DNA from: a bacterium
Lineage (GTDB): Bacteria; JAHJDO01
Reading direction: 5' to 3'
NCBI GenBank assembly: GCA_030652805.1
Contig: JAUSPT010000100.1
Location: 9,465-73,464 of the forward strand
DNA: 64,000 nucleotides
Positions 10,622-18,609 of the stretch are shown in pieces. A model generated the notes under the pieces. It saw only the letters and a list, made by a program, of their open reading frames with translations, was not told the DNA's origin and made no database searches. The position numbers and the translations under genes were made by a program. The stretch's first letter is position 1; each line of letters opens with the position of its first letter.

Positions 10622-10735
10622 GTGAATTGCGCTAATACAAAGGGAATATTCCGTATCATTCAGTCTATTCCTTCAAAAAAAGGCTGGTTGGAGCGTGATA
10701 AAAAGGAGGTGATAGACGATGTTAGATCAAAATAA
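10622..10735 (+). pseudogene. Remnant of a BRO/antirepressor-type gene
   Basis: The 37-codon frame contains NTKGIFRIIQSIPSKK, which matches the stretch following the DNA-binding part of BRO/DinD-like phage antirepressors. The family context (a preceding DNA-binding domain and the following PFKQWLAKVGYER-type segment) is missing, and the frame runs into the start of the RhuM gene. It is therefore read as a decayed prophage or mobile-element gene at the island's left edge. Confidence 0.55.
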
Positions 10736-11771
10736 ATCACAGCTTATTATTTACCAGACCGAAACAGGTGAAACTAAGATTGACGTGAGGTTCCAAGATG
10801 AAACGGTATGGCTGTCTCAACAGTTAATGGCAGAACTATTTCGGACAACCAAGCAAAACGTAAGTCTTCATATTAGAAATATTTATGAAGAAGAGGAATT
10901 GTCGCCTCAAGCAACTGTCAAGGAATTCTTGACAGTTCAAAAAGAAGGCGAACGAAAAGTTAGACGTAAAGTAGAATTTTATAATCTCGATATGATTATA
11001 TCTGTTGGGTATCGCATTAAGTCTAGGGTAGCAACTCATTTCAGACAATGGGCAACACGTCATTTAAGGGAATATATAGTTAAAGGGTTTGTTTTAGATG
11101 ATGAGCGGCTTAAGAATCCGAATCAGCCGTTTGATTATTATGATGAGTTAATTAGACGTATTCAGGATATACGAACATCCGAACGGCGTTTTTATCAAAA
11201 AATCACAGATATTTATGCCACAAGCGTTGACTATGACCCAACAAATGAAATGAGTATTGATTTTTTTAAGACCGTTCAAAATAAGATGCATTGGGCGATT
11301 ACAGGGAAAACCGCTGCAGAAATTATTCATAAAAGAGCAGACAGTAAGAAAGCAAATATGGGATTAACAAGTTGGCGGGGAGTAAAAATTCGCAAAGATG
11401 ATGTAGAAATTGCGAAAAACTATTTAGACGAAAAAGAATTGATGGCTTTAAATAATTTAGTTGAACAATATTTGATTTTTGCAGAGGGACAGGCAATGAG
11501 ACGTATTCCAATGTATATGAGAGGTTGGATTACTAAGTTGGATTCCTTTCTGCAACTCAACGAAAGAGAAATATTGATGCACGCAGGGAAAATATCGCAT
11601 CAGATTGCCATGGAAGCCGCAGAGAAGGAATACGAAAAATATTCTAAAAAAAGACAGATTGCTTATGACAAAAGAGAAAATTCTTTTGATGTATTAGTTA
11701 ACGAAACGAAGAAAATAGAAAGTAAAAAAGGGACACATACAATGTTAACATCAAAAATGGTCAGGGGATAG
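10719..11771 (+). CDS. RhuM-family protein
   Basis: This 350-residue protein matches the RhuM family named after a Salmonella pathogenicity-island gene and widespread on mobile elements. Conserved blocks are IIYQTETGETKIDVRF, ETVWLSQQLMAELFRTTKQNVSLHI near residues 28-50, FYNLDMIISVGYRIKS and FRQWATRHLREYIVKGFVLDDERLKNP. The first half has a BRO-N/KilA-like DNA-binding look; the second half is helical. An AAGGAGGTGAT ribosome site precedes the ATG. The biochemical function is not known; island location suggests a defence, toxin or mobile-element role. Confidence 0.9.
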   Translation: MLDQNKSQLIIYQTETGETKIDVRFQDETVWLSQQLMAELFRTTKQNVSLHIRNIYEEEELSPQATVKEFLTVQKEGERKVRRKVEFYNLDMIISVGYRIKSRVATHFRQWATRHLREYIVKGFVLDDERLKNPNQPFDYYDELIRRIQDIRTSERRFYQKITDIYATSVDYDPTNEMSIDFFKTVQNKMHWAITGKTAAEIIHKRADSKKANMGLTSWRGVKIRKDDVEIAKNYLDEKELMALNNLVEQYLIFAEGQAMRRIPMYMRGWITKLDSFLQLNEREILMHAGKISHQIAMEAAEKEYEKYSKKRQIAYDKRENSFDVLVNETKKIESKKGTHTMLTSKMVRG

Positions 11772-11793: not shown

Positions 11794-11818
11794 TGTAGGG
11801 GCACAATATCTTGTGCCC
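11794..11818 (+). repeat. GGGC...GCCCCTACA hairpin repeat, copy L1
   Basis: This 25-base hairpin beginning TGTAGGGGCACAAT is the exact reverse complement of the copy at 18378-18402. It ends in a T-run and may also terminate RhuM transcription. Confidence 0.85.
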
Positions 11819-11827
11819 TTTTTTTAT

Positions 11828-11866
11828 GTCATTGCGAAGAGCGAAGCGATGTGGCAATCTCTTCGT
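11828..11866. repeat. Dispersed 'TCATTGCGAAG' REP-like sequence
   Basis: The stretch begins TCATTGCGAAGAGCGAAGCG and includes GTGGCAATCTC, a pattern seen as dispersed intergenic repeats in many genomes. Fragments reading TTCGCAATGACAGAATGGG and CGTAATGACAGAATGGG occur near 18680 and 18557 at the other edge of the island, in opposite orientation. Confidence 0.55.
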
Positions 11867-11885
11867 AATTCTCCGATTTTCATAT

Positions 11886-11911
11886 TGTAGGGGCGGGGCT
11901 TGCCCCCGCCC
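11886..11911 (+). repeat. GGGC...GCCCCTACA hairpin repeat, copy L2
   Basis: TGTAGGGGCGGGGC pairs with GCCCCCGCCC and is followed by TTTTTT. Same TGTAGGGGC head as L1, different stem sequence, so the family is defined by its loop-distal TGTAGGGGC end. Confidence 0.75.
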
Positions 11912-11973
11912 TTTTTTCTTTATGATTTTGGGATGGTGGAGTATAATTGGAGTTTGAAAGAAGAAGAAAGACT

Positions 11974-13782
11974 ATGCCAAGAATAAAAGATATACCAAAA
12001 ATTGATCGGCCAAGGGAAAAGTTTCTCAAAAAAGGGCCAGAGGCTCTTTCTAAAAGTGATCTTTTGGCAATCCTTTTAGGTAGTGGGATAAAGGGCAAAA
12101 ATGTTAAACAGCTTTCAGAAAATATAATAAAAAAATTCGGTAAAAACTTTTTAAATATAACTGTTGATGATTTATTAAAAATTTCAGGAATTGGTCAGGC
12201 CAAAGCTTTGCAAATCGCTTCTGCTGTTGCTTTAGTAAAAAGATATTATGACGAAAAAGAGCCAAAAAGAAATCTCGTTTTATCGGTCAATGACGCAATT
12301 GCTTTAACCTCTGACTTAAAAGAAAAGAAAAAAGAATATTTGATTTGTCTTTACTTGAATGCAAGAAATGCTTTGCTGAAGAAGGATATTATATCAATCG
12401 GTACTCTTGATAAAAGCCTAATTCATCCAAGAGAAATTTTTGGTCCTGCCGTAGAATTGCGATCAGCAGGTATTATATTGGTTCACAACCATCCCTCAGG
12501 CGATCCGTCACCAAGCAAACAGGATATTGATATTTTTAACAAGATTATTGAAGCTGGCAAGATAATGGGAGTCAATATTATTGATATTATCATTATTGGC
12601 GACGATAAAATCTACAGTTTTTTCAAAGATTTACAGCAGGGTAAAAGCACTGATTATGTTTCAGACGGCATACAGTATTCGCTTTTTGATTTACTAGAAG
12701 CAGAAACATCTGCCTACACTCCCGCAACTACTAAAGTTAATAAAATTTATTTTTCACTAAAAAAAAGAAATATTGTAGGGAAATTTCAAATACAAAATCG
12801 ACGTTTTCTTGGGAACAAATATAAACTTCTTGGTTTCATTGAGGATATTGTTAATGAAAAATGCAATGGATTTAATTCCTTTTGCGATATATTTGCTGGT
12901 ACTGGCGTTGTAGGCGAGCGGTTTAATGAAAAAGATATAAAAGTTATCAGCAATGATTTATTATTTAGCAATTACTTCCCTCTAAAAACTTTTCTTGGCT
13001 CTACACAAATAAACTTGGATACTCTCAAAGAAAAAATTGATTTATTGAATGACTTAAAAGTCAATCAAGACAATTATTTTTCTATTCACTACGGTGATAC
13101 TTATTTTACCTTGGAGAATGCAAGAAAAATAGGTGTCATTAGAGAAAAGATTGAAGAACTTGCAAGCAATAAAGATGAAAAAGCCGCACTTATAACTGCC
13201 TTGCTATACGCTACCGATAAAGTTGCAAATACAGTTGGACACTATGACGCATATAGAAAAAAATTAGATACAATACAGCCAATACAGCTTTTAGTGCCTG
13301 ACATTGCTTTAGATAGTAACAGCAATAATGAAGTTCTACGAGAAGATGCGAATTTACTTATTCGAAAAATATCTTGTGATGTTTTATATATGGATCCGCC
13401 TTACAATTCGCGCCAGTATTGTGATGCTTATCATTTGCTAGAGAATCTTGCAACTTGGAAAAAACCGCAGGTGTATGGAAAGGCAAAAAAAATGGATAGG
13501 TCTCGTATAAAAAGCGATTACTGTTTGAAAGCCGCCATGAGAGCATTTAATGATTTAATTAAAAATGCAAACTGTAAACATATTTTAATTTCGTATAATA
13601 ATACTGGTGAATCAAAAGACGGAAGATCAAACGCGCGTATAAAGGATGAAGAGATTATAAATATACTCAAAAATAAAGGGGATGTTGAAATTTTCGAAAG
13701 AGATTATAAAGCTTTTACAACAGGCAAAAGTAATGGTAATGGAAACACTGAACGTGTCTTTTACTGTAAAGCAACAAAATAA
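11974..13782 (+). CDS. RadC (JAB/MPN) - D12-class N6-adenine DNA methyltransferase fusion
   Basis: One uninterrupted frame joins two complete proteins. Residues 1 to about 225 are a full RadC: N-terminal ARP/DLLAILLGSG region, helix-hairpin-helix ISGIGQAKAL, and a JAMM site with an upstream Glu (HPREIFGPA) and HNHPSGDPSPSKQD. From about 258 the protein is a D12-class adenine methylase: NRRFLGNKYKLL (motif X), FCDIFAGTGVVGERF (SAM motif I, near 302) and YMDPPYNSRQY (catalytic DPPY, near 473). The ATG at 11974 follows a purine-rich AAGAAGAAAG stretch. It precedes an AlwI-family endonuclease by two bases, so it should protect one strand of that enzyme's asymmetric site; the role of RadC is unexplained. 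Confidence 0.9.
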   Translation: MPRIKDIPKIDRPREKFLKKGPEALSKSDLLAILLGSGIKGKNVKQLSENIIKKFGKNFLNITVDDLLKISGIGQAKALQIASAVALVKRYYDEKEPKRNLVLSVNDAIALTSDLKEKKKEYLICLYLNARNALLKKDIISIGTLDKSLIHPREIFGPAVELRSAGIILVHNHPSGDPSPSKQDIDIFNKIIEAGKIMGVNIIDIIIIGDDKIYSFFKDLQQGKSTDYVSDGIQYSLFDLLEAETSAYTPATTKVNKIYFSLKKRNIVGKFQIQNRRFLGNKYKLLGFIEDIVNEKCNGFNSFCDIFAGTGVVGERFNEKDIKVISNDLLFSNYFPLKTFLGSTQINLDTLKEKIDLLNDLKVNQDNYFSIHYGDTYFTLENARKIGVIREKIEELASNKDEKAALITALLYATDKVANTVGHYDAYRKKLDTIQPIQLLVPDIALDSNSNNEVLREDANLLIRKISCDVLYMDPPYNSRQYCDAYHLLENLATWKKPQVYGKAKKMDRSRIKSDYCLKAAMRAFNDLIKNANCKHILISYNNTGESKDGRSNARIKDEEIINILKNKGDVEIFERDYKAFTTGKSNGNGNTERVFYCKATK

Positions 13783-13784
13783 CT

Positions 13785-15602
13785 ATGAAAAAACCTTGGT
13801 CAATAACAACAACACTTCGGAATCCTGAAAGATTAAGAAATTTCTTAACTGTTTTACAGCAGCTAGAAAATCTTGAATGGAATTTGGAAAATCAAAAGAA
13901 ATACCAAATTCTCTTAATCAAAAACAGAATTTATGGATATGGAAGCGTGCAATTTTATAATGGATTATTCCAAGAACAAATTGATTTGATAGATGATCAA
14001 ACAAAAGAAATCCCTTTTGGAAAAGCAGAAGAAATTTTTAATACAAAAAACTATGAAGACTCAGCCATGAGAGGAAGGCAGTCAATAAATCCTCTCAAAA
14101 AAATTGGGCTAGTTTCCATAAAAGATAAAAAAATATTCATAACAAGTTTGGGGAAGTCATTTTTAAAAGATGATTTCGATTTTGGAGAAATATTTTTTAG
14201 AAGTTTTATAAAATGGCAAATCCCGAATCCTGACAGCAGTGATTATAAACTTGAAGATGGATATGATATAAAACCATTTATAGGAGTTTTGCATCTTATT
14301 CAAAAAGTTAATGAAAAGTCTTTAAAGTTAGGGAAAAAAGCAAAAGGTATTAGTAAAGGGGAATTTTCTTTATTTGCCCCAACTCTCGTAACTTTTTCAA
14401 ATATAGATTGTTATGCTAAAAAAATTATTAAATTAAGAAAGAAAATGGAAGAAAAAACCAAACAAGAACAAAAAACGATTTTTAATAATTATAAGAAAGT
14501 TTTTGCACAAGAATTTTTGGAATCATCAAATGTGGAAGAAACAAACAAACTCTTACAAAATCTAAAAGATTATGGAGATAATGCAATAAGGTATTTTCGT
14601 TTAACTCGCTACATTTATATTCGTGGTGGCGGATTTTATATTGATTTAGAACCAAGAAGATCAATTGAAATTGAAAATTTACTCAGCTTTGATAATGGAC
14701 AATCAAAAACCTTTAAAAATAAAGAAGAATATTTAGACTATATTGCTGACATTTCACAACCAAAACTGTCTTGGGAAACAAAAGAAAAATTTATTGAAAT
14801 TATTTCTAAACTTCTAGAAGACATAAAATCTTACGAAGAACAATTAAACATAACCTCAAGAGAAATTTTAGATTTTAAAGATTTGGAAGAAGATTGTCTA
14901 AAAAACTATATTACAGAACTAAGACAATATAGAAGAGAATTACAAGACAAAGAAAATCACTTAAAATCACAAGATATTGAACAAATTGATGAATATATAA
15001 AGAATCTCGAAAATATTTTTGATTTTGAAGATAGACCAATTTTACTGGAAAAATTATCTGCCCTTGGATTAAACGCTTTAAACGATGCTTTAAAAATCAA
15101 ACCAAATTACCCTGTTGGGGATGACAATGAGCCGACTTTTACAGCGCCAGCCAATACGCCAGATATTGAATGTTTTTATGAGAATTTTAACGCAATTTGT
15201 GAGGTAACAATGCTTACGAGCAAGGATCAGTGGTATAATGAGGGGCAACCAGTAATGAGGCATTTGAGAGATTTTGAAAGCAAACATCAAGACAAAAAAT
15301 CTTATTGTTTATTTATAGCTCCAAGACTTCATCGGGATACAATCAATACGTTTTGGACAGCTATAAAATATGAATACGAAGGAAGTCCACAAAAAATAAT
15401 TCCGTTATCAATAAATAATTTTGTATTACTCTTAAAAATCTTAGTTCAAATAAAATTAGAGAATAAGTTTTTAAGACACAATGAACTTGCACGTTTGTAT
15501 GATGAAATACTGGATTCCTCAAAATTTTTTAATAACTCTAATAAGTGGTTAAGAAATATTCCCAACGCCATTTCTTCATGGCAAAAAGGCCTTAGTTTTT
15601 AA
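13785..15602 (+). CDS. AlwI-family type IIS restriction endonuclease
   Basis: The 605-residue protein opens KPWSITTTLRNPERLRNFL, the signature start of the AlwI/PleI/MlyI-like endonucleases that cut outside an asymmetric site. The N-terminal half contains winged-helix-like segments (MRGRQSINPLKKIGLVSI) suited to site recognition. The C-terminal part around residues 455-490 (DIECFYENFNAICEVTM) looks like the nuclease core with acidic residues around ICEV. The recognition sequence cannot be read from the protein. It lies between two methyltransferase genes with 2-base spacings, forming a type IIS R-M operon. Confidence 0.9.
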   Translation: MKKPWSITTTLRNPERLRNFLTVLQQLENLEWNLENQKKYQILLIKNRIYGYGSVQFYNGLFQEQIDLIDDQTKEIPFGKAEEIFNTKNYEDSAMRGRQSINPLKKIGLVSIKDKKIFITSLGKSFLKDDFDFGEIFFRSFIKWQIPNPDSSDYKLEDGYDIKPFIGVLHLIQKVNEKSLKLGKKAKGISKGEFSLFAPTLVTFSNIDCYAKKIIKLRKKMEEKTKQEQKTIFNNYKKVFAQEFLESSNVEETNKLLQNLKDYGDNAIRYFRLTRYIYIRGGGFYIDLEPRRSIEIENLLSFDNGQSKTFKNKEEYLDYIADISQPKLSWETKEKFIEIISKLLEDIKSYEEQLNITSREILDFKDLEEDCLKNYITELRQYRRELQDKENHLKSQDIEQIDEYIKNLENIFDFEDRPILLEKLSALGLNALNDALKIKPNYPVGDDNEPTFTAPANTPDIECFYENFNAICEVTMLTSKDQWYNEGQPVMRHLRDFESKHQDKKSYCLFIAPRLHRDTINTFWTAIKYEYEGSPQKIIPLSINNFVLLLKILVQIKLENKFLRHNELARLYDEILDSSKFFNNSNKWLRNIPNAISSWQKGLSF

Positions 15603-15604
15603 CT

Positions 15605-16393
15605 ATGAGTATGAAAAAAAATATTATTTACAACGATGATTGCATAAAAATACTTAATACAAAAATTGATAAAAAATCAATTGATCTTATTTTTGCTGAC
15701 CCTCCTTATAATCTTTCTGGCAATGGGTTGAAGTGGGAAGGAAATAAAACGGGTGGGGACTGGTATATGGTAAATGAAGAATGGGACAAAATGACCGCTC
15801 CTGAATATATGCAATTTACAAGAAAGTGGATTGGAGCTTGCCATAAAATTTTAAAAGATACTGGTTCAATTTATATTGCTTGTAGTTATCACAATATTGC
15901 TGAAGTAATGATTATTTTAAAACAGCTGGATTTTAAGATAAATAATATCATTACTTGGTACAAAACAAATGCTATGCCAAATATGACAAGGCGAATCTTT
16001 ACTCATTCTACAGAATTTATTGTTTGGGCGGTAAAAGGTAAAAAGTGGATTTTTAATTACGAGGAGCTTAAAAAGATTAATCCGGAAAAACAAAAAGATG
16101 GGTCGTTAAAACAAATGCGAGATGTGTGGTCTTTGCCTTTGGTGCAAGGTAAAGAAAGATTGAGAGGGAAAGATGGTCGAGCTTTGCATCCAACACAAAA
16201 ACCAGAGGAGGTGCTTAAACGAATTATTGTTGCCTCTTCTAATAAAGGCGATTTAGTTTTAGATCCATTTTTAGGAAGCGGCACAACTGCGATAATAGCA
16301 AAAAAAATGGGAAGAAATTGGATTGGAATTGAGAGAAGCAAAAAGTATATAGAGATGGCAAAGAAGCGGATTGATGTGAAATTAAAGAAATAA
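15605..16393 (+). CDS. Beta-class DNA methyltransferase (N6-A or N4-C) of the R-M system
   Basis: The catalytic motif DPPYNL is near residue 31 and the SAM motif LDPFLGSGTT near 218, the order of beta-class enzymes such as the DpnA/MboII type. LHPTQKPEEVLKRII precedes the SAM motif, as usual. At 262 residues it has a short target-recognition segment in the middle. It starts two bases after the AlwI-like endonuclease stop; a start six bases downstream (second Met) is equally possible. An asymmetric site needs both strands methylated, so this enzyme and the RadC-linked methylase probably take one strand each. Confidence 0.93.
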   Translation: MSMKKNIIYNDDCIKILNTKIDKKSIDLIFADPPYNLSGNGLKWEGNKTGGDWYMVNEEWDKMTAPEYMQFTRKWIGACHKILKDTGSIYIACSYHNIAEVMIILKQLDFKINNIITWYKTNAMPNMTRRIFTHSTEFIVWAVKGKKWIFNYEELKKINPEKQKDGSLKQMRDVWSLPLVQGKERLRGKDGRALHPTQKPEEVLKRIIVASSNKGDLVLDPFLGSGTTAIIAKKMGRNWIGIERSKKYIEMAKKRIDVKLKK

Positions 16394-16479: not shown

Positions 16480-18186
16480 ATGAGAATCAAACAATTAATA
16501 CTTAAAGATTTCGGCCCTTTCAATCGCTACAAGATATCATTTGTAGAAGAAGATGAAATCTGCATGCTGCTGACAGGAAAGAACAATGAAGGAAAATCTA
16601 GCATAATAAATGGATTAAAACTCCTTAATGATGCAACAAAGGTCATAAACAAGAAAAAACAGGAAATAAAGATTGACGGAGACTACTATTACAAACTTCT
16701 TCAACAAGACACAGAAAATTTTCTTGTTGGTAGAATGATTCATAACTATAAAGAAAATAGGGCGGAGATTATTGGAATCTTTCAAGGTGGTTTGGAAATT
16801 ACCGTATACTTAGACCCTATCGAAAATATGATATTTGCAAATTTTGAAGGTTGCATCCCTGTTGATGTACATAACATTTTCGGTTTCATACCTCCCCTTG
16901 GACCACTGAATGAGAACGAAGACATAATTACAAAATTATCCTATCTCAAAGCAAGTATTGATACTTCTCTTGCACCTCGACATCTTAGAAACCACTTTTA
17001 TCAAATTCTCACTAAAGACGAATTGGCTCTTGTTAGGCAACTTATAAAGAGGTCTTGGGTAGGCATTGAACTACTTGACTATGAGCTTAACTATCAACAA
17101 GGGAAAATATATTGCTATTACAAAGAGGGTGGTATTGGTCGTGAGATTTCTTGGGCAGGTCAAGGGCTTCAAGTTTGGTTCCAAATTATTACTCATGTTG
17201 TCAGACTCAGGGAATCTTCAATCCTAATACTTGATGAGCCAGAAATTAATCTCCATCCAGAAAAGCAAAACGATATTATAAGAATATTAAAAGATTATTA
17301 TCATGGAAGTATTATAATCGCAACTCATTCCATTGAATTAATGAACAATGTTAGTGTTAGCCATATCATTAATGTCCAAAAAAAACACAACAAGCCAAAA
17401 ATTAAATCAACAAAGGATAGGGTTTACTTAAACTTGGTACGGTCTCAAATTGGAAGCAATTTTAATCTAATTGCTTCACAATTCGAAGAGTTTGATATTA
17501 TTGTTTTCACCGAAGATACATTTGATTTTGACATACTTCAACAGATAGCATTGGATTATAAAATAAGGAAAAAAGCTTTCAATATTCCAATTTATGGTTT
17601 TAGCGAATTTAATAAATGTATCTCCTATAAGCACGCATACAAGACACTAATTGGAAAGGACATAGACTATACCCTTGTCCTGGATAGGGACTACTATCCG
17701 GAGGAATATCTAAAAAAAGTTACAGAAATCCTTAAAACCTCAAGCATTAAGGTCGTTTTTACGCCAGGAAAAGAAATTGAGAACTTATTTCTATCACCGG
17801 ATATTCTAACTGCGTTAATTCCAGAAACATCTCATAAAAAATTTTCAAAGATTTGGGATGAAATGTTTGAATCACTTCGTCTGGATTGCTATGGAAGTTA
17901 TCTCACACTTCATGGCCAATTCTTAGATCCTAAATTAGACACAAAAACTATTGCAACACGTTACACTCCTGTTTTTGAAAAATGCTGGAGTGATACTAAG
18001 AATAGGCACAAGATTGTTTCAGGAAAAGAAGCGTTGAAGGTGTTAAGAAAATTTTACAGAGATGAGACTAAAAGTAATCTAAGCCAAAATTTACTTATTG
18101 AAAAACTTATTCAAATAGAAAATGAAAACATCAAGCAATTCATTGAAGAAGTTTACCAATTAAGGAAAACCAGGGGACGTTCATAA
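16480..18186 (+). CDS. OLD-like AAA ATPase with TOPRIM domain
   Basis: The 568-residue protein has an ABC/SMC-type ATPase: Walker A LTGKNNEGKSS near residue 36, a divergent signature SWAGQGLQVW near 225, Walker B ILILDEPEINLHP near 247 and switch histidine ATHSIELM near 281. It is followed by a TOPRIM-like module with FTEDTFDFD near 342 and LDRDYYPEE near 400, keeping the acidic residues expected of an active nuclease. This is the OLD-family plan; such proteins act in anti-phage defence alone or with a partner. Position directly after an R-M operon and inside the hairpin-bracketed island supports a defence role. No Gabija-type helicase or PARIS-type partner is adjacent. Confidence 0.85.
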   Translation: MRIKQLILKDFGPFNRYKISFVEEDEICMLLTGKNNEGKSSIINGLKLLNDATKVINKKKQEIKIDGDYYYKLLQQDTENFLVGRMIHNYKENRAEIIGIFQGGLEITVYLDPIENMIFANFEGCIPVDVHNIFGFIPPLGPLNENEDIITKLSYLKASIDTSLAPRHLRNHFYQILTKDELALVRQLIKRSWVGIELLDYELNYQQGKIYCYYKEGGIGREISWAGQGLQVWFQIITHVVRLRESSILILDEPEINLHPEKQNDIIRILKDYYHGSIIIATHSIELMNNVSVSHIINVQKKHNKPKIKSTKDRVYLNLVRSQIGSNFNLIASQFEEFDIIVFTEDTFDFDILQQIALDYKIRKKAFNIPIYGFSEFNKCISYKHAYKTLIGKDIDYTLVLDRDYYPEEYLKKVTEILKTSSIKVVFTPGKEIENLFLSPDILTALIPETSHKKFSKIWDEMFESLRLDCYGSYLTLHGQFLDPKLDTKTIATRYTPVFEKCWSDTKNRHKIVSGKEALKVLRKFYRDETKSNLSQNLLIEKLIQIENENIKQFIEEVYQLRKTRGRS

Positions 18187-18377: not shown

Positions 18378-18402
18378 GGGCACAAGATATTGTGCCCCTA
18401 CA
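18378..18402 (-). repeat. GGGC...GCCCCTACA hairpin repeat, copy R1
   Basis: Exact reverse complement of the 25-base copy at 11794-11818, on the far side of the restriction/OLD genes. Confidence 0.85.
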
Positions 18403-18442
18403 AAACCCCCAATCAACCCAAAGAACGACACAACAAAGCAAA

Positions 18443-18467
18443 GGGACAGGCATGCCAGTCCCCTACA
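18443..18467 (-). repeat. GGGC...GCCCCTACA hairpin repeat, copy R2
   Basis: GGGACAGGCATGCCAGTCCC hairpin followed by CTACA; same head sequence as R1, different stem. Confidence 0.75.
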
Positions 18468-18500
18468 TAAAAATCACAAAAGAAACCAATCTCTTGGAAT

Positions 18501-18527
18501 GGGCGAATACACGGATTCGCCCCTACA
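18501..18527 (-). repeat. GGGC...GCCCCTACA hairpin repeat, copy R3
   Basis: GGGCGAATAC pairs with GATTCGCCC and is followed by CTACA, in the same orientation as R1 and R2. Confidence 0.75.
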
Positions 18528-18583
18528 ATCTGGAAACAGGGATAATTTTATTTTTCGTAATGACAGAATGGGGATATTCAAAC

Positions 18584-18609
18584 GGGCAGACGCAAGGGCT
18601 GCCCCTACA
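18584..18609 (-). repeat. GGGC...GCCCCTACA hairpin repeat, copy R4
   Basis: GGGCAGACGC pairs with GGGCTGCCC and is followed by CTACA. Together with R1-R3 the 607-base gap at 18187-18792 is essentially a graveyard of these hairpins, a GCCTGC-type imperfect hairpin near 18615-18632 and the gene remnants; no intact gene is seen. Confidence 0.75.

Follow-up and report, generated by a model that had tools for sequence, protein, structure and literature searches.

A RadC domain fused to an adenine methylase of a type IIS-like restriction operon and a linker motif resembling a sliding-clamp binding motif

Introduction

What does a RadC domain do at the front of a modification methylase? The question arises from one gene in the 64,000-nucleotide stretch of DNA that was analysed (the window), in which RadC is joined to an adenine methylase (MTase) within a restriction-modification (R-M) operon. 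What RadC does has been an open question for decades, and a RadC-methylase fusion with a clamp-like peptide offers a direct and testable context for it, the replication fork. The timing of modification versus restriction is a basic problem of restriction systems. We found no description of RadC-methylase fusions or of clamp motifs in R-M methylases in the open-access literature; the architecture may already be listed in domain databases.

Results and Discussion

A complete RadC and a D12 methylase in one open frame

As shown in Table 1, the fusion gene encodes a RadC, a linker and a D12-class methylase in a single protein. According to the ORF listing and its translation, the frame starts at the ATG and is uninterrupted to its end; the program-called ORF opens at a TTG 27 bp upstream, at 11947. 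The JAMM glutamate is E154 (12433-12435), within an HPREIF ... HNHPSGDPSPSKQD context. E154, H171, H173 and D184 are all present and are invariant across a 14-row alignment. RadC family models were matched above their cut-offs by NF000642 (213 bits, cut-off 180) and TIGR00608 (207 bits, cut-off 133.85), and the HhH at residues 61-83 scores below the Pfam cut-off. The other half is a D12 N6-adenine methylase by its PF02086 fold, its DPPYNSRQY motif and a Foldseek match to E. coli Dam. Its homologous part extends to residue 602, and PADLOC MTase_II matches residues 270-599 with 383 bits. The AlphaFold2 model (34 rows, mean pLDDT 78) has two folded parts with a disordered stretch between them around the linker motif; pLDDT is below 50 at residues 221-224, 230-250 and 257-263 and about 32 around the motif.

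Table 1. Coordinates of the fusion gene, its parts and the rest of the R-M operon in the window.
Feature	Position	Strand	Evidence
RadC-D12 fusion gene, 602 aa	11974..13782	+	open frame and Pfam matches
UPF0758_N / HhH-bearing RadC N-terminal part, residues 4-78	11983..12207	+	PF20582, 81 bits
RadC JAB domain, residues 107-218	12292..12627	+	PF04002, 123.5 bits; Foldseek, RadC 2qlc, TMt 0.87
JAMM motif HNHPSGDPSPSKQD, residues 171-184	12484..12525	+	invariant residues in 14-row alignment
Linker, largely disordered, residues 219-270	12628..12783	+	AlphaFold2 pLDDT
QYSLF, clamp-binding-like motif, residues 234-238	12673..12687	+	Q, L and F invariant in A2 alignment
D12-class adenine methylase domain, residues 278-522	12805..13539	+	PF02086, 109.4 bits
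AlwI-family restriction endonuclease, 605 aa	13785..15602	+	PF09491, 279 bits
Second methylase, N6_N4 class, CcrM-like, 262 aa	15605..16393	+	PF01555, 218 bits

An earlier note on this DNA had described a complete RadC with an intact JAMM site in one frame with a D12 methylase, and the open 602-aa ORF with its Pfam matches bears this out. A frame error between the halves and an assembly artefact at the junction, either of which would by the note have refuted the fusion, are both ruled out, since the ORF is open throughout and over 25 further loci have the RadC-D12 junction.

The restriction-modification operon and its neighbours

The fusion lies directly upstream of an AlwI-family nuclease and a second methylase, as had been claimed: PF02086, PF09491 and PF01555 are found in three adjacent genes, methylase and nuclease side by side as in type II R-M systems, with a gap of 2 bp at each of the two gene junctions. 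The nuclease is homologous to the nickase N.BspD6I and matches PADLOC REase_II with 431 bits. CcrM is the closest solved structure to the second methylase (6pbd, 7e-63). The operon is a predicted mobile type IIS-like R-M system of known kind. In an analysis of word avoidance GAATC seemed depleted in the window, but control loci showed a similar depletion, so this says nothing of the recognition site. GAGTC is only a guess, based on the likeness of the second methylase to CcrM and the homology of the nuclease to N.BspD6I.

A RhuM-family gene (PF13310, 378 bits) lies immediately upstream of the R-M block at 10719-11771. An AAA ATPase (AAA_21/AAA_15) at 16480-18186, 86 bp downstream of the operon, matches AriA, PtuA, GajA and OLD-type ATPases in PADLOC and is possibly a further defence gene. 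Palindromic GTAGGGGC...GCCC hairpin repeats at 11795-11911 and 18378-18608 flank the R-M/AAA block and point inward, with an identical 24-bp copy at 11795 (+) and 18401 (-). They are possibly cassette borders, or merely dispersed repeats.

Spread of the RadC-D12 family

GTDB species genomes were scanned with a D12 alignment and the best 80 loci were taken. RadC and D12 share one frame in about 27 of these 80, RadC being partial in three or four, and mostly the AlwI nuclease and second methylase follow in conserved order. This recurrence rules out a fusion confined to the source genome. By record titles, the RadC-D12 loci belong to Patescibacteria groups, Omnitrophota, Atribacteria, Nitrospirae, Clostridia, Ignavibacteriales and Gammaproteobacteria, and among archaea to Thermoplasmatota and Woesearchaeota; single assignments may be wrong because the loci come mostly from metagenome bins. 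Three loci assigned to three phyla (L040, L041 and L045) share about 89% DNA identity over the operon, which implies recent transfer or mis-binning. The fusion was found in 5 of 383 genomes sampled in the class of the Patescibacteria genome G251, in 4 of 385 diverse bacterial genomes (source genome counted) and in 1 of 237 in a sample of an archaeal phylum, that one being the centre genome. None of the loci examined in the D12 and RadC scans was an MTase-fused RadC on a viral contig, and a single-sequence scan of viral contigs gave no match. One Atribacteria genome (G064) holds two distinct RadC-D12 R-M systems, L057 and L155.

The linker motif resembles a clamp-binding motif

The RadC-methylase linker is variable and about 50 aa long, and Y228, Q234, L237 and F238 are its sole invariant positions in the 14-row alignment. 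Q-x-x-L-F is present in 33 of 34 MTase fusions and also in two found later (L286 and L288); the exception, L060, has PASLF instead and a dead JAMM site. Q, L and F are fixed, whereas a wide range of residues is found at the two positions in the middle. In D12 linkers the motif was observed in 29 of 30 versus 0.58 expected by shuffling, and the control motifs F..LQ, Q..FL, L..QF, Q.L.F, N..LF, E..LF and K..LF were observed in none; as the fusion sequences are related, these counts are not independent events.

Relatives of the methylase that have no RadC mostly do not carry the motif, which occurs in 7 of their 34 N-termini (0.41 expected). In five of the RadC-less relatives (L047, L051, L055, L067 and L143) it lies 37-43 residues from the methylase core, and in the fusions inspected 40 residues from it. 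Three Bacillaceae relatives of helix-turn-helix type carry QLSLPI, QLSLPV and QFTLPI, similar to the Hda-type clamp motif. Four Firmicutes loci (L017, L121, L089 and L100) have QLELF, QLSLF, QLSLPI or QLSLPV between a helix-turn-helix and D12. RadCs of the viral contigs L246, L264 and L266 have Q-x-x-L-F near a terminus (QLSLF, QEGLF and QLNLF), perhaps as clamp tags on phage RadCs.

The beta-clamp motif is Q-aliphatic-x-[L/M][F/L], in which Q is important and LF is the best ending (PMC11139829). QYSLF is located in a disordered linker, and across the family its Q, L and F are fixed, but position 2 is often not aliphatic. The linker motif resembles a beta-sliding-clamp binding motif. We give about an even chance to the explanation that through it the methylase and RadC dock on the replication clamp, which would couple self-marking to replication. 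Docking is made less certain by position 2 and by the many RadC-less relatives without the motif. In favour of the clamp reading, the host encodes DnaN; against it, the host's DnaE carries QTLFF instead of Q-x-x-L-F in the region where the motif would be expected.

Alternatively, RadC could be an N-terminal DNA-binding or regulatory domain for operon expression or site search, the motif having another partner or aiding assembly. Firmicutes homologues of the same D12 domain have a helix-turn-helix-like N-terminus at the position of RadC, and RadC itself includes an HhH-type DNA-binding part, both in line with such a role; the intact zinc site and the recurrence of the motif with and without RadC are left unexplained by it, and we regard it as unlikely. 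It is improbable that the motif serves RadC alone, as a clamp-associated DNA-processing enzyme (e.g. a nuclease that attacks incoming or damaged DNA) which the methylase only keeps in the R-M operon. The conserved JAMM residues would suit such an enzyme, and RadC-clade JAB domains are proposed as nucleases (PMC3482391, PMC5512222), but the five RadC-less relatives listed above retain the motif at about an equal distance from the methylase.

RadC as a portable module of modification enzymes

A profile of RadC plus linker (A2) sets the two kinds of RadC apart: the fusions, with frames of 565-616 aa, score at least 360 bits and free RadCs at most 264 bits. The fusions include ones to unrelated methylases. 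RadC is fused to a C5 methylase followed by an HpaII nuclease in L151 and L279, and in L278 to a C5 methylase next to which is encoded, downstream, a protein whose C-terminal domain is of NgoFVII type (PADLOC REase_II, 344 bits). In L280 it sits on a C5 methylase of a different subfamily, and the next protein is only weakly nuclease-like. The RadCs of L148, L155 and L277 are 65-72% identical to that of the window, their D12 domains only 43-45%; these loci also carry a D12-type second methylase and a divergent AlwI. Downstream of the RadC-C5/HpaII genes of L151, a Patescibacteria locus, a PD-Lambda-5_A-like protein and another D12 methylase are encoded (L151:7509-9774), which together with those genes form a compact defence cluster.

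In a tree of 86 RadC domains, built with the linker excluded and by a quick method without bootstrap, the MTase-fused RadCs form one clade (SH-aLRT 99), which the divergent fusion L081 joins at SH-aLRT 93. The clade lies nested within free RadCs, of which many are from Patescibacteria, and the C5 fusions sit at two places inside the clade. On the D12 tree, the presence of RadC requires at least 10 changes. One RadC lineage has therefore been repeatedly joined to and lost from different methylases, and its occurrence on D12 and several C5 methylases makes RadC a module that can be carried at the N-terminus of various modification enzymes. The fused RadC was not recruited from the host's own free copies: the two others in the host show 29% identity to it and are far off in the tree.

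One of these free RadCs follows a complete type I operon, hsdM-hsdS-hsdR-radC, on another contig of the source genome (L034:1259-7917, contig C88), and in L167, from an Atribacteria genome, hsdR is likewise followed by a RadC that is nearly identical to it. The other adjoins R-M genes in its own species and not in the sister species. At most, this hints that free RadC tends to occur at R-M loci in general.

Constraint on the RadC half

Of 51 fused entries, duplicates included, 48 keep the JAMM residues intact. By the crude NG86 method, close pairs give dN/dS values of 0.02-0.11 in the RadC half and 0.05-0.09 in the methylase; RadC is no less constrained than its partner. Decay was seen in L060 (HNH changed to YND, N-terminal part gone), L072 (JAMM absent) and L042 (RadC N-terminal part replaced by integrase-like sequence). 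RadC is thus selected in most members and is not essential to the methylase.

The earlier note had suggested that RadC may couple repair, proteolysis or regulation to self/non-self marking. A link of RadC to self-marking is real, as purifying selection and the conserved architecture show; nothing found here points to a proteolytic role. RadC-clade JAB domains are argued to lack the ubiquitin-tail groove and to be likelier to process nucleic acids (PMC5512222, PMC3482391). If RadC were a JAMM metallopeptidase and controlled restriction by cleaving the fusion or the nuclease, this would account for the intact zinc-site residues, but besides the missing groove no ubiquitin-like partner was noticed within the operon and the fusion is retained alongside nucleases of different families; this is the least supported of the functional alternatives and very improbable. 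A neutral fusion hitchhiking with a mobile R-M system would agree with the patchiness of RadC on the D12 tree and its decay in a few members, but is largely disfavoured by the constraint on RadC, with its low dN/dS and kept catalytic residues, and by the repeated pairing of one RadC clade with different methylases, so that its probability is close to negligible.

Proposed clamp docking and comparison with known systems

From these observations we infer clamp binding, coupling to replication and an activity of RadC. According to the clamp-docking explanation, RadC and a disordered linker form a portable module at the N-terminus of the first modification enzyme, and the Q-x-x-L-F of the linker is most likely what docks this enzyme onto the sliding clamp (DnaN, or PCNA in archaeal hosts). 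Docking would bring the methylase and RadC to freshly replicated DNA, and new sites would be marked before the partner nuclease acts. RadC, with its HhH and zinc-enzyme fold, probably binds or processes DNA structures at the fork. Marking at the fork may be useful to an R-M system that moves between hosts, but the need for recruitment there is not obvious because hemimethylated sites are usually protected. More tentatively, and with a chance somewhat short of even, RadC plus Q-x-x-L-F may be a general plug-in that tethers N6-adenine and C5-cytosine R-M methylases to the clamp for replication-coupled marking in bacteria and archaea, with RadC at the fork.

Like the RadC polyvalent proteins of conjugative elements (PMC5512222), the fusion joins RadC to other domains in a protein of genome conflict; the partners in the available part of that paper are HhH, ArdC-N and helicase domains, with none described to a modification methylase. 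Free-standing RadC (COG2003; 2qlc) shares UPF0758_N, JAB and the JAMM residues with the fused RadC. The latter differs in forming a separate clade on R-M methylases and in keeping the linker motif, which free-standing RadCs do not have, with few exceptions. Type IIS systems with AlwI-family nucleases (AlwI; N.BspD6I-type nickases) likewise have a D12 methylase, an AlwI-family nuclease and a second methylase together in an operon, and homology between their nuclease and that of the window covers most of the protein. Their first methylase has a helix-turn-helix or nothing where RadC and a clamp-like linker are found here.

Eukaryotic DNMT1 has a PCNA-binding motif. By analogy, the linker may work like it, as a peptide through which a DNA methylase docks on the clamp for post-replication marking, although the targeting part of DNMT1 has no homology to the linker and here the enzyme belongs to a restriction system and its docking is putative. 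If the analogy is true, post-replication recruitment, known for eukaryotic DNMT1 and PCNA, would extend to bacterial restriction systems.
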